Positions 27,483 through 33,386 of a stretch of DNA of 37,803 bases are shown in pieces. Position 1 is the first letter of the stretch, and every line of letters starts with the position of its first letter. The position numbers were made by a program, and so were the translations under genes. A model generated the notes under the pieces. That model worked only from the letters and a program-made list of their open reading frames with translations, had not been told where the DNA came from and ran no database searches. Source of the stretch: Gemmataceae bacterium (GTDB lineage Bacteria; Planctomycetota; Planctomycetia; Gemmatales; Gemmataceae); assembly GCA_019747685.1 (NCBI GenBank), contig JAIEQN010000257.1, forward strand, positions 1 through 37,803, in the 5' to 3' direction.

Positions 27483-28520
27483 CTACAACCCCTCAGGTAG
27501 GACCTCAGCCGGGTCGGTGAAGATGGCCGGCACCCCGCCCGTGTGGACGAAGACTAGCGCCGACCCAGGCGCATATCGGCCCGCCCGAACGTCGGCGATC
27601 AGGGCGGCCATCGCCTTCGCCGAGTAAACCGGGTCGAGCAGGATGGCTTCGGTCGTGGCCAGCAGGTGCAGGGCCTCCCGCCCGGCCGGCGACGACTTCC
27701 CGTAGCCCGGCGCGATGTACCCTTCGTCGGCGTCGATGTCGGCCGCGGCCAGCCGGTGCGGCAGCTCGAGCAGCCCGGCCGCGGCGTTGGCGTCGGCGGC
27801 GACCGCCTCCGGGATCGGCCACGGCCAACTCATTGGGCAGGTCAGTCGGGCCGGACACTCCAGCCCGAGGACGGCTTTACCGAGGGTCACCCCGGCCCCG
27901 GTCGCCCCGGACGACGACACGTACAAGGCGGACGGAGCCAGCCCGAGGGCGGCCAGTTGCCCGACGATTTCGGCCACGCAGACGACGTAGCTGACCGCCG
28001 CCAGGGGCACGACCCGCGGCCGGTGCCAGACGTAGGGCCGCCGCCCGGCCCGGCGGAACCCGTCGGCCTTTGCGGCCAGCAGGGCGTCCAGCTCCGGCCC
28101 GATCGCGGCGTCGGTGAACTCGACGTGGGCACCCACCAGGTAATCGAGCAGCAGGTTGCCTTGTGGCTCGGTCGAATAGTGCCCGCGGCTGAGGTAGAGC
28201 CGGCATTCGAGGCCGAGCTTGGCGCAGCCGGCCGCCGTCTGCCGGCAGTTGTTCGACTGGACACCGGCCCCCCAGACGACCAGGTCGCAGCGCTGATCGA
28301 CGGCGTCGCCGAGCAGGAACTCGTTGTGCCGGGCCTTGTTCCCGCCGAGCAACAGTCCGGTGCAATCGTCCCGCTTCACGAACACCCGGACTCCGCCGCC
28401 GATCCGCTCGGCGAACCGGGGCGCTTCTTCCAGCGGCGTCGGCAGGTGGGCCAGCCGGACTCGGGGTAACCGGTCGGCGGCGGCGAACAGGTCGGCCGGG
28501 CGGAGGATCGGCGCGGGCAT
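27483..28520 (-). CDS. PLP-dependent D-cysteine desulfhydrase / ACC deaminase-like enzyme
   Basis: RVRLAHLPTPLEEAPRFAERIGGGVRVFVKRDDCTGLLLGGNKARHNEFLLGDA, GVQSNNCRQTAAGCAKLGLECRLYL. Confidence 0.9.
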   Translation of the reverse strand: MPAPILRPADLFAAADRLPRVRLAHLPTPLEEAPRFAERIGGGVRVFVKRDDCTGLLLGGNKARHNEFLLGDAVDQRCDLVVWGAGVQSNNCRQTAAGCAKLGLECRLYLSRGHYSTEPQGNLLLDYLVGAHVEFTDAAIGPELDALLAAKADGFRRAGRRPYVWHRPRVVPLAAVSYVVCVAEIVGQLAALGLAPSALYVSSSGATGAGVTLGKAVLGLECPARLTCPMSWPWPIPEAVAADANAAAGLLELPHRLAAADIDADEGYIAPGYGKSSPAGREALHLLATTEAILLDPVYSAKAMAALIADVRAGRYAPGSALVFVHTGGVPAIFTDPAEVLPEGL

Positions 28521-28676: not shown

Positions 28677-30275
28677 ATGCCCGCACCGGCCGCCACCGTC
28701 GCCCGCCCCACCGTACCGACCGGCCGTCGGCCGCAGAAGGTGCTGGTCATCGGGGCCGGGCCGGGCGGGCTGGCCGCGTCGCTCTTGCTGGCCCGGGCCG
28801 GGCTGGAGGTCCACGTCGTCGAGCGGCTGCCGCGGGTCGGCGGGCGGTGCAGCGCGATCGAGGCCGACGGCTTCCGGTTCGACCTCGGGCCGACCTTCTT
28901 CCTCTACCCGCGGGTGCTCGAGCGCATCTTCAAGCTGGTCGGCCGGGACCTCTTCCGCGAGGTCCCGATGACCCGGCTCGACCCCCAGTACCGGCTCGCC
29001 TTCGGCACCGGCCAGACCCTCGACTGCACCGCCGACGTGGCCCGGATGGAGGCCGAGATCGCCCGCATCGCCCCGGCCGACGCGGCGGGCATCCGGCGGT
29101 TCCTGGCCGAGAACCGGCGGAAGATGGACGGCTTCCGCCCGATCCTGGAGCGCCCGTTCCTCCGCTGGCGGGACCTGCTGAGTTGGGACCTGCTGAAGAT
29201 GCTGCCGGTGCTGCGGCCGTGGAACTCGGTGGACGCCGAACTCGGCCGGTACTTCGCCGACCCCCGCATCCGGCTGGCGTTCACCTTCCAGTCGAAGTAC
29301 CTCGGGATGTCGCCGTTCAACTGCCCGAGCCTGTTCTCGATCCTGTCGTTCCTGGAGTACGAGTACGGCGTCTGGCACCCGACCGGCGGTTGCTCGGCCG
29401 TCTCCGAAGGGATGGCCCGGGTCGCCCGCGAACTCGGCGTCACCTTCTTGCTCGGCGAGGAGGTCGAGGAAATCCTGTTCGACGGCCGGCGGGCGGTCGG
29501 GGTCCGGACCGCGGCCGGCGAGCACCGGGCCGACGCGGTGGTGGTGAACGCCGACTTCGCCCGTGCCATGACCCGACTCGTCCCGGACCGGCTCCGCCGC
29601 CGGTGGACGGACGACAAGATCGGGAAAAAGAAGTTCTCCTGCTCGACGTTCATGCTGTACCTCGGCGTCGACGGCCGGTACGACGACCTGTCGCACCACA
29701 CCATCTACACGGCCGAGGACTACCACGCCAACCTGGCCGACATCGAACTCCACCACCGGCTGACCGAGGACACCTCGTTCTACGTCCAGAACGCCGCCGT
29801 CACCGACCCGACCCTGGCCCCGCGGGGGATGAGTACGCTGTACGTCCTGGCCCCGGTGTCGCACCAGCACCCGAGCATCGACTGGAAGCACGAGGCCCCG
29901 CGGTTCCGGCGGCAACTGCTCGGCCAGCTCCGAAAGATCGGCCTGGCGGACGTGGAGCGGCGCATCCGGTACGAGAAGGTGGTGACGCCGGACGACTGGC
30001 AGGGCGGCTACGAGGTCTACCGGGGGGCGACGTTCAACCTGGCCCACACCCTCGGCCAGATGCTCCACCTGCGGCCGCGGAACCGGTTCGACGACCTGGA
30101 CGGGGTCTACCTGGTCGGCGGCGGCACCCACCCCGGGAGCGGGCTGCCGGTCATCTACGAGTCGGCCCGGATCACCGCCCGGCTGCTCCTGGAGGACTTC
30201 GGCCGGGACGCCGGCTGGCTCGGGCTGCCGGGCGCGAAGGACCTGCCGCTGACGGCCGGGGTGCCGGCCGGGTAA
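28677..30275 (+). CDS. CrtI/CrtN family carotenoid (phytoene/diapophytoene-type) desaturase
   Basis: KVLVIGAGPGGLAASLLLARAGLEVHVVERLPRVGGRCSAIEADGFRFDLGPTFFLYP; C-terminal GVYLVGGGTHPGSGLPVIYESARITARLLLED. Confidence 0.9.
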   Translation: MPAPAATVARPTVPTGRRPQKVLVIGAGPGGLAASLLLARAGLEVHVVERLPRVGGRCSAIEADGFRFDLGPTFFLYPRVLERIFKLVGRDLFREVPMTRLDPQYRLAFGTGQTLDCTADVARMEAEIARIAPADAAGIRRFLAENRRKMDGFRPILERPFLRWRDLLSWDLLKMLPVLRPWNSVDAELGRYFADPRIRLAFTFQSKYLGMSPFNCPSLFSILSFLEYEYGVWHPTGGCSAVSEGMARVARELGVTFLLGEEVEEILFDGRRAVGVRTAAGEHRADAVVVNADFARAMTRLVPDRLRRRWTDDKIGKKKFSCSTFMLYLGVDGRYDDLSHHTIYTAEDYHANLADIELHHRLTEDTSFYVQNAAVTDPTLAPRGMSTLYVLAPVSHQHPSIDWKHEAPRFRRQLLGQLRKIGLADVERRIRYEKVVTPDDWQGGYEVYRGATFNLAHTLGQMLHLRPRNRFDDLDGVYLVGGGTHPGSGLPVIYESARITARLLLEDFGRDAGWLGLPGAKDLPLTAGVPAG

Positions 30276-30308
30276 GATGGCGGCGTCCCCAGGCCGGAGG
30301 TGCCGCCC

Positions 30309-30908
30309 ATGGCGTACCGCGAGTTCACGTTCCCGGAAGTCGAAACCCGGCTCGGGCTGCGGATGACGACCGACCGACTGTTCCGGGACGTGCCGGCCGT
30401 GACGCCGGACCCCGACCTGTTGTCGCGGCTGGAGGACGGGGTCGAACTCGGCACCGGGATCAACACCGAGAAGGCCCGGTCCGAGTTCATCGTCGCCCTA
30501 ATCCTGTTAGAGTTCCGCCGGCTCGTCCACCGGCGGCACGCAGTCTTCTCGGGGGTGACGTTCGATGTCGACCCGGTCCTCGGGTTGAACGGGTACTGCG
30601 ACTTCCTGATCACCCGCAGCCCCCGGCTCGACGTCGTCACCGCCCCCGTGGTGGCGGTCGCCGAGGGCAAGAACGGGGTGGTGACCGACGGCCTCGGCCA
30701 GTGCATCGCCGAGATGCGGGCGGCGTGGCTGTTCAACACGGCCAAGGGGGAGCCGGTCCAGCAGGTCTACGGCGCGTGTACGACCGGGACGAACTGGAAG
30801 TTCCTGCGCCTCCGCGACCTCGATCTGGCGATCGACCTCGACGAGTACACGATCAACGCCCCGGGGAAGATCCTGGGCATCCTCCTGCACATGGTGCAGA
30901 CGGCGTAA
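30309..30908 (+). CDS. hypothetical protein, PD-(D/E)XK nuclease-like motif
   Basis: MAYREFTFPEVETRLGL...INTEKARSEFIVALILLEFRRLVHRRHAVFSGVTFDVDPVLGLNGYCDFLITRSPRL...PVVAVAEGKNGVVTDGLGQCIAEMRAAWLFN: D...ExK...Q arrangement. Confidence 0.72.
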   Translation: MAYREFTFPEVETRLGLRMTTDRLFRDVPAVTPDPDLLSRLEDGVELGTGINTEKARSEFIVALILLEFRRLVHRRHAVFSGVTFDVDPVLGLNGYCDFLITRSPRLDVVTAPVVAVAEGKNGVVTDGLGQCIAEMRAAWLFNTAKGEPVQQVYGACTTGTNWKFLRLRDLDLAIDLDEYTINAPGKILGILLHMVQTA

Positions 30909-30923
30909 CGAAAGGCGGCGGCG

Positions 30924-32486
30924 ATGGGCGGGGCGGACCGGGTCGGGGTGGTCGGCGGCGGGCTCGGCGGGCTGGCGGCGGCCTGCGTGCTGGCCGCCCG
31001 CGGCCACCGGGTTGTACTGTTCGAGGCCAGCCCGTGGCTGGGCGGGAAGGCCGCGGTCCTCAACGACGCGGGGTTCCGCTTCGACACGGGGCCGACGATC
31101 CTGACCATCCCGTCGGTGCTGCGGCGCATCTTCGCCGAGGCCGGCCGCGACCTCGCCGACTACCTCGACCTCGTCCGACTCGACCCGCAGTGGCGGTGCT
31201 TCTTCACCGACGGCTCGGTCCTCGACCTCGTCGAGGATGTCGACACGATGGCCGGCCGGCTCGACGCCTACGCCCCGGGCACCGGCTCGGGGGCCGGCTA
31301 CCGCGACTTCCTGGCCCTGTCGGGCCGGCTGCACCGCATCTCCGACACCTACTACTTCTGGAAGTCGATCGGCGGCATCCGGGACATGATGGACGTGCGG
31401 GCCGGGTTCTCGCCGAAGATTCTCGCCGACATCCTGGCGATGCGGATGGGGCGGTCGGTCGCGGGCACCGTCCGGAAGTTCAACCCGGACCCCCGGGTCG
31501 CCCAGATGCTCGACCACTTCACCCAGTACGTCGGGTCGAGTCCGGCCGCGTCGCCGGCGGTGCTGTGTGGCATCGCCCACATGCAGACCGGCGAGGGCGT
31601 CTGGTATCCCCGCGGCGGCACCCGGGCCGTCCCGGAGGCCCTGGTCAAGCTGGCCGAGGAACTCGGCGTCGAGTTGCGGCCGAACTGGGGCGTCCGGCGG
31701 ATCGTGACCGACGCCGGCGGGAAGGCGGTCCGCGGCGTCGAGGCCGAAACCGGCGAGGTAGTCGAACTGGCGGCGGTGGTAGCGAACGCCGACAGCGTCC
31801 GCACCCACCGCGAACTGCTGAACGGCTCGGCCCCGAAGGCGACCCGCCGGTTCAACAAGCGGCGGGCTTACGAACCGGCCTGCTCCGGCGTGGTCCTCTA
31901 CCTCGGGCTGAGCAAGGGGTACGACCACCTCCTCCACCACGACTTCGTCTTCAGCCGCGACCCGGAAGAGGAGTTCGAGTTCATCTACAAGCGGGGCGAG
32001 CCGGCCCCGGACCCGACCTGCTACCTGGCGGCCACCGCCCGCACAGAACCCGAGACCGCCCCGCCCGGCGGCGAGGCCCTGTACGTCCTCGTCCACACCC
32101 CGTACCTGCGGCCGCACCACGACTGGGCGAAAATGCTCCCGGCCTACCGGCGGGTCATCCTGGACAAGCTGAAGACGACCGGGAAGATGCCGGACCTCGA
32201 GGACCGGATCGTCTTCGAGCGGCGCCTCACCCCGCAGGACATCCACGACCGCTACCGGGTGCTGGACGGGGCCATCTACGGGTTGGCCAGCCACGGCCGG
32301 TGGACCGGGGCGTTCAAGCCGGCTAACCGGTCGCCGGACGTGCGGGGGCTGTACCTGGCCGGCGGGGCGGCACACCCCGGCCCCGGGATGCCGATGGTCT
32401 TGATGAGCGGGTGGATCGCCGCCGACACCCTCGACCGCGACCGGGCCGCCCCGAAGTTCGCCGCCGAACGCGCCGCGGCCGTATGA
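30924..32486 (+). CDS. second CrtI-family desaturase/oxidase (CrtP-like candidate)
   Basis: VGVVGGGLGGLAAACVLAARGHRVVLFEASPWLGGKAAVLNDAGFRFDTGPTILTIPSVL; C-terminal GLYLAGGAAHPGPGMPMVLMSGWIAADTL. Confidence 0.9.
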   Translation: MGGADRVGVVGGGLGGLAAACVLAARGHRVVLFEASPWLGGKAAVLNDAGFRFDTGPTILTIPSVLRRIFAEAGRDLADYLDLVRLDPQWRCFFTDGSVLDLVEDVDTMAGRLDAYAPGTGSGAGYRDFLALSGRLHRISDTYYFWKSIGGIRDMMDVRAGFSPKILADILAMRMGRSVAGTVRKFNPDPRVAQMLDHFTQYVGSSPAASPAVLCGIAHMQTGEGVWYPRGGTRAVPEALVKLAEELGVELRPNWGVRRIVTDAGGKAVRGVEAETGEVVELAAVVANADSVRTHRELLNGSAPKATRRFNKRRAYEPACSGVVLYLGLSKGYDHLLHHDFVFSRDPEEEFEFIYKRGEPAPDPTCYLAATARTEPETAPPGGEALYVLVHTPYLRPHHDWAKMLPAYRRVILDKLKTTGKMPDLEDRIVFERRLTPQDIHDRYRVLDGAIYGLASHGRWTGAFKPANRSPDVRGLYLAGGAAHPGPGMPMVLMSGWIAADTLDRDRAAPKFAAERAAAV

Positions 32487-32564: not shown

Positions 32565-33386
32565 ATGCCCTCAACTCCCCAACCTCGCCCGGTCGACTTA
32601 CCCCGCCGCTGGCCGTGGCTCGTCCGCGGCTTCCGCAAGTACGCCCGGCGGTACGCCCGCAAGCACTTCCACGCCGTCCGGCTGTCGAAGGCCGGCCACC
32701 CGTTCCCGCCGGCCGATGAGCCGGTGTTGGTCGTCCTCAACCACCCGTCCTGGTGGGATCCGCTGACCGGGCTGATCCTGAGCGGCAGCTTCACCGCCCA
32801 CGAGCACTTCGCGGCCATCGACGCCGTCGCCGTCGAGCGGTACGGGTTCTTCAAGCGGCTCGGGTTCGTCGGCGTTGACACCCACTCGCTCCGCGGGGCG
32901 GCCGAGTTCCTCCGGGTCGGGGCGGCGATCCTCGCCGAACCCGGCCGGGCGTTCTGGGTGACGGCCCAGGGGCGGTTCACCGACCCGCGGGCCCGACCGC
33001 TCGGGCTGCGGTCCGGGGTCGGCCACCTCGCCGCCCGGCTCGGCCGGGGGGTCGTCGTCCCGGTCGCCTTCGAGTACCCGTTCTGGGACGAGCGGACGCC
33101 GGAAGCCCTGCTCCGGGTCGGTAAGCCGGTTCGGGCGGCCGACCACCCGGGCCTCGGCGGCAAGGAGTGGACGGCGGTGATCGAGGACGCCCTGACCCGG
33201 ACGATGGACGGCCTGGCCGTCGATGCCATGACCCGCGACCCGGCGACGTTCACCGAGCTGGTCGGCGGCCGCACCGGGGTCGGCGGGGTGTACGACCTGT
33301 GGCGGTGGGCCAGGGCGTTCGTCCGGGGCGAGCGGTTCGACCCGTCCCACGCGGCCGCCACCGCCGGCCGGGGGGCCCGGCCGTGA
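32565..33386 (+). CDS. PlsC-like 1-acylglycerol-3-phosphate acyltransferase family protein
   Basis: VLVVLNHPSWWDPLTGLIL (NHxxxxD), GFFKRLGFVGVD, AFWVTAQGRFTDPR, GVVVPVAFEYPFWDER. Start taken at ATG 32565, because the GTG at 32532 lies inside the inverted repeat. Confidence 0.87.
   Translation: MPSTPQPRPVDLPRRWPWLVRGFRKYARRYARKHFHAVRLSKAGHPFPPADEPVLVVLNHPSWWDPLTGLILSGSFTAHEHFAAIDAVAVERYGFFKRLGFVGVDTHSLRGAAEFLRVGAAILAEPGRAFWVTAQGRFTDPRARPLGLRSGVGHLAARLGRGVVVPVAFEYPFWDERTPEALLRVGKPVRAADHPGLGGKEWTAVIEDALTRTMDGLAVDAMTRDPATFTELVGGRTGVGGVYDLWRWARAFVRGERFDPSHAAATAGRGARP

Follow-up and report, generated by a model that had tools for sequence, protein, structure and literature searches.

Gene X, a small open reading frame lodged between two CrtI-family genes of a Gemmataceae bacterium, is probably a passenger nuclease of the PD-(D/E)XK type that belongs to a separate family, has a Uma2-like lifestyle and plays no part in pigment formation. 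This reading is preferred because the family members are solitary and are gained and lost at numerous unconnected places of bacterial genomes. It removes the tempting but wrong interpretation of a nuclease working in pigment synthesis. Moreover, since sites with X intact, decayed or absent were found in close relatives, the proposal of 2005 that such genes are selfish elements becomes directly testable at the bench.

The window, i.e. the whole stretch of DNA that was analysed, comprises 37,803 nucleotides (contig JAIEQN010000257.1). Here “gene X” or “X” denotes the open reading frame under study, L-numbers denote loci and G-numbers denote genomes. The crt region of the window contains the following features:

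28740..30275, + strand, CrtI-family carotenoid desaturase/oxidase upstream of X (longest ORF from 28605)
30276..30308, + strand, left spacer of the X slot, 33 nt
30309..30908, + strand, gene X, stand-alone PD-(D/E)XK-type protein of 199 aa with E54, E59, D98, E119, K121 and Q131
30909..30923, + strand, right spacer of the X slot, 15 nt
30924..32486, + strand, CrtI-family carotenoid desaturase/oxidase downstream of X
32565..33386, + strand, acyltransferase (PF01553), the operon gene after the downstream CrtI-family gene, syntenic in L032 and L033
33383..34519, + strand, following operon gene, glycosyltransferase-like by inspection, syntenic in L032 and L033

X starts with ATG and stops with TAA, and its longest in-frame start is a GTG at 30300. 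Both flanking CrtI-family genes score above the TIGR02734 crtI_fam cut-off of 238 bits (551 bits upstream and 399 bits downstream). The open reading frame is a real gene and not a product of chance, since 132 related stretches were found in public genomes by a genome pattern search, dN/dS among intact family copies amounts to 0.07-0.34 (pairs where estimable) and so indicates purifying selection, the codon score is gene-like, and the GC3 of 0.945 is similar to that of the neighbours. The initial annotation had given the position, the length of about 200 aa, the common strand and both spacings correctly. It had also read the D...ExK...Q motif correctly, and this motif is conserved across the family.

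From 65 aligned relatives of X an AlphaFold2 model was built that has a mean pLDDT of 96.1 and a pTM of 0.92. Its elements are in order helix 54-72, strands 79-84, 96-102 and 113-119, helix 125-145 and strand 153-158, which is the alpha-beta-beta-beta-alpha-beta succession of the PD-(D/E)XK core. Among solved structures the top Foldseek match is the nuclease domain of the restriction enzyme DrdV (7lo5; E 2e-4, TMq 0.46), from which X differs by an identity of 11% and by the length of the DrdV chain (about 1000 residues). Overall TM scores are modest, and after DrdV come mitoribosomal chains with large rmsd. The PD-(D/E)XK-like fold that had been assumed for X is thus upheld by the core order of the model and by the DrdV match. 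The expected active-site positions rank among the most conserved ones in the 65-sequence alignment: D98, E119 and K121 are kept in 61 relatives, and the complete signature of E54, E59, D98, E119-x-K121 and Q131 is present in 59. X possesses the conserved D, the (D/E)xK and the acidic helix residue typical of PD-(D/E)XK enzymes, and the catalytic residues are intact in the copy at the crt locus. From the model and these conserved residues X is predicted to be a metal-dependent DNA endonuclease of this superfamily. Residue losses occur in a few copies (E119V in L042 and in one L104 copy, D98N in L023, E59V together with K121E in L004), as expected for decaying genes.

Searches of Pfam, NCBIfam and PDB sequences revealed no real match for X, and PHROGs delivered weak, scattered matches only. 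The X family represents a further large set of solitary PD-(D/E)XK genes that is covered by no Pfam or NCBIfam model. The PADLOC profile PDLC01472 (‘PD_DExK’) matches 65 of 65 family members with a best value of 5.5e-55, and in X itself it covers residues 53-197 (3e-42). This profile is listed as CRISPR-Cas associated; in contrast with this listing, cas genes or arrays are not a feature of the X family's neighbourhoods, as judged from the listed neighbour matches and the loci scanned. The layout of D, ExK and Q is similar in HSDR_N (PF04313, PF13588), the nuclease domain of type I restriction subunits, but X has no match to these two models and contains no helicase domain.

A further comparison is that with Uma2 (COG4636, PF05685). 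Both families are of the PD-(D/E)XK type, have multiple copies with patchy occurrence in freshwater cyanobacteria, are found at scattered sites, include some tandem and disrupted copies and are mostly without a fixed partner; one X member even directly adjoins a Uma2 gene. Feder and Bujnicki described COG4636 as horizontally transferred, proliferating PD-(D/E)XK nucleases at erratic positions, which are maybe selfish elements spread via DNA breaks (PMC551604), and Makarova et al. considered COG4636/Uma2 as likely solo toxins that formed cassettes of paralogues (PMC2701414). The lifestyle of solo nuclease genes that are multi-copy, patchy, scattered, partnerless and decaying is found in the X family as well. 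Most Uma2 members have a migrated catalytic lysine (PMC551604), whereas X shows the canonical D...ExK order (E119-x-K121), and Uma2 is absent from the Pfam matches of all 65 members at a threshold of E 0.1. Because of this canonical lysine and the missing profile match the X family is, as judged from sequence, not Uma2; by analogy its mode of life appears to be the same.

In the genome pattern search the top 80 loci belong only to planctomycetes (nearly all of them Gemmataceae), cyanobacteria (mostly filamentous, including Nostocales) and large gammaproteobacteria, e.g., Methylococcaceae, Thiotrichaceae and Competibacteraceae. Within Gemmataceae, 41 of 95 genomes contain members with 1-15 copies per genome, several genomes being fragmented assemblies, so that absence is less certain in the incomplete ones. 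The genome of the window harbours six members, and several members in Gemmataceae are broken. A phylum-wide sample of 199 genomes yielded only one genome with members besides the window's own. Thirteen cyanobacterial plasmids carry X, five of which are conjugative; in phages and IMG/VR no relatives were found. A diverged subfamily with 25-28% identity to X is represented by L006 1432-2049, L026, L047 3459-4058 and L052 8637-9248, and some loci contain its members in tandem, either with one another or with an ordinary X copy.

The immediate neighbours around 111 X-family genes fall into 138 clusters without any recurrent partner. According to tallies of the 25 commonest families, with neighbour genes called by our own script, the commonest Pfam family accounts for at most 3 of 116 cyanobacterial and gammaproteobacterial neighbours and for at most 3 of 71 Gemmataceae neighbours, and many neighbours are housekeeping genes. 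When each context is counted once, the gene upstream of X is co-directional in 80% of the cases versus 64% in the background (p 0.002), and downstream there is no preference in orientation (59%). The upstream gap is shorter (66 versus 110 nt). An arrangement of DUF3727, X and a YqeG-like phosphatase was observed in 22 Nostoc-type loci. A CRISPR association of the family was also considered and found to be weak: the window contains no CRISPR array, no Cas family is among the neighbour matches listed (first 25), and a simple repeat scan of 106 related loci detected a single clear array. This lone array (L111 from about 2530), whose repeat ends TAATCCCTATTAGGGATTGAAAC and occurs 18 times, is separated by a few kb from an X member.

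As a less likely but serious alternative, X may be a solo defence nuclease beneficial for its host, which cuts invading DNA or kills infected cells. Such a gene would spread horizontally like other defence genes and be lost when costly, and the crt operon would be a convenient site of expression. Several copies reside in defence operons (DISARM, type I RM, DUF1156/DUF499), which suits a defence role and speaks against a mere passenger. One DISARM system shows the order DrmD, X, methyltransferase; hsdS adjoins X in four loci; and a Planktothrix plasmid (L152 3778-5603) carries the cassette DUF1156 - HSDR_N-type - Uma2 - X - DUF499, in which X is accompanied by a stand-alone HSDR_N-type gene. 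Furthermore, a match to Gabija GajB and matches to DISARM occur among the neighbours, and the CRISPR-associated listing of the PADLOC profile, the conjugative plasmids and the purifying selection are in line with defence. Nevertheless, most neighbours are not defence genes and none of the defence genes recurs, a fixed methyltransferase, antitoxin or immunity partner was not found, and the rarity of clear CRISPR arrays points in the same direction. The data are compatible with a selfish passenger as well as with a solo defence gene; the passenger is ranked higher because most sites are outside defence loci and there is no recurrent defence partner. In the Planktothrix cassette the HSDR_N-type, Uma2 and X genes form a row of three distinct small PD-(D/E)XK-type genes.

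In Nostocales, X copies with 92-97% identity in DNA are located at unrelated sites. Their similarity ends 59-160 nt upstream and up to 81 nt downstream of the open reading frame, and the upstream ends are the tail of a 540-aa HTH gene. On cyanobacterial plasmids this gene is situated 27 nt upstream of X and encodes a product of 536-545 aa with a C-terminal HTH as its only assigned part:

L108 6363-7973, gene of the 536-545-aa HTH protein before X
L155 3363-4973, gene of the 536-545-aa HTH protein before X
L157 3360-4973, gene of the 536-545-aa HTH protein before X

Remnants of this gene mark chromosomal X copies. At a cofH-like locus within one Dolichospermum-type genus, genomes are either empty, contain X with a short tail or, in two cases (G069 and G071), retain longer remnants of the 540-aa gene; therefore, a larger piece was probably inserted and then trimmed while X was kept. 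Transposition with variable ends was considered on account of the ragged left ends, but the remnants in G069 and G071 make trimming after insertion at least as likely. Since the Nostocales copies carry pieces of the 540-aa gene, their movement may be due to plasmid fragments with later trimming and not to X itself, which argues against the passenger reading. Decay of copies is visible at the DUF3727-YqeG slot. YqeG similarity served to sample 30 Nostocaceae loci: X is intact in two and frameshifted, internally deleted or residual in four, and none was detected in the rest. Purifying selection on intact copies together with such broken and empty slots means that copies are kept functional for some time and are then lost.

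Four crt loci have X between their CrtI-family genes, namely those of the window, G003 (= L032), G384 (= L033) and G041, whose copy is 44% identical to X. In G003 the crt slot contains two tandem copies, which are separated by a long palindrome (L032 8601-8844). Thus 4 of 46 sampled crt loci have X and it is absent in 42, of which five show the downstream gene alone, so that the slot is not informative there. The closest relative G005 (crtB 90% identical) has a crt slot without X, which is occupied by a short spacer containing an inverted repeat of 21 nt without mismatch (L112 1971-2055), and the crtA-crtB spacers of G004 and G021 are short and also without X. The crtA-crtB gap of G002 (L113 1940-2410) comprises two palindromic elements, the first of which has 39-nt perfect arms of the TTCACCACAGAGTCACAGAG type, and a second, incomplete copy of the crtB start. 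A search for remnants of X in G002, G004, G005 and G021, whose crt slots are empty, found none. G384 possesses two crtI-type pairs (L210, L211) with about 89-93% protein identity, one with and one without X; therefore, X is not needed for the pair.

All crt-slot copies form one clade in the X tree (97/91). At silent sites they are about as diverged as the crt genes on either side (dS about 1-2, near saturation), and X evolves faster than its crt neighbours. A crt tree of 23 loci suggested one gain and four losses; the sample of 46 loci raises the losses to a dozen or more, counted from the tree, which weakens the inference of one gain. We infer from the trees a single old arrival before at least three genera split, followed by loss in most lineages. 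Against this stands that plain parsimony gets along with four changes, and X may instead have been transferred into this slot from lineage to lineage in ancient times.

A strict free-standing homing endonuclease would cleave alleles that lack X at one target site and enter them through repair copying; this would explain the repeated presence of X at the same crt slot, yet we regard it as unlikely. Same-site alleles with and without X do exist both at the crt slot, with G384 uniting the two states in one genome, and at the DUF3727-YqeG slot with its pattern of invasion, decay and loss. Moreover, the loci with a filled slot lie dispersed over the crt tree of 46 loci (minimum of four changes in X presence), although their X copies are one clade. 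However, no co-conversion tract of the flanks is seen beside the crt slot in the identity profiles of window/G005 or of G384 with and without X, where power is limited by divergence, and the silent divergence of X, matching that of the crt genes near saturation, argues against recent transfer. A specific target site common to the insertions is not apparent either, as the near-identical Nostocales copies have unrelated flanks. Strict homing is disfavoured because of this lack of co-conversion and of shared targets. Similarly improbable is that X genes are genuine homing elements, free-standing in bacterial chromosomes, which enter fixed intergenic slots (crt-crt, DUF3727-YqeG) again and again by cleavage of the empty alleles.

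In the passenger reading, the X family moves between genomes and sites, as its distribution and the near-identical copies at unrelated sites show. It settles in short intergenic gaps, more commonly than expected behind a co-directional gene, and would so be expressed from a host operon. Copies persist for a time under purifying selection before they decay or are deleted, as both the intact and the broken ones show. In Nostocales X appears to be carried along with the plasmid-borne neighbour gene. The likeliest reason for the spread of a solo gene with PD-(D/E)XK fold would be nuclease-stimulated recombination, as proposed for Uma2. In the crt operon X would take no part in carotenoid synthesis; its long persistence there under purifying selection could nevertheless mean a benefit for the host, which counts against a passenger.

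That X contributes to the carotenoid operon as a working component (repurposed fold or regulator) is very improbable despite its tight co-directional spacing, the arrangement retained in G003, G384 and G041 (44% X identity), and the purifying selection, since regular presence in crt operons is not observed (absent in 42 of 46 sampled loci, five of them with the downstream gene only, and in the sister genome G005), members elsewhere adjoin unrelated genes, the active-site residues are kept and X evolves faster than its crt neighbours. The initial annotation held up with respect to the fold, to the frequency of homologues in cyanobacteria, which the genome pattern search bears out, and to its suggestion that a selfish or defence-type gene had been captured, as the family is patchy, mobile, partnerless and decaying. 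Its notion of a special feature of pigment operons finds no support, the insertion not being conserved in related crt loci, and that of a repurposed fold disagrees with the intact catalytic residues. On the other side of the upstream CrtI-family gene a PLP-dependent enzyme (window 27483-28520, - strand) matches models of D-cysteine desulfhydrase, cysteate sulfo-lyase and coenzyme M synthesis, all under cut-off, and its gene is a neighbour retained in L033 and other relatives.
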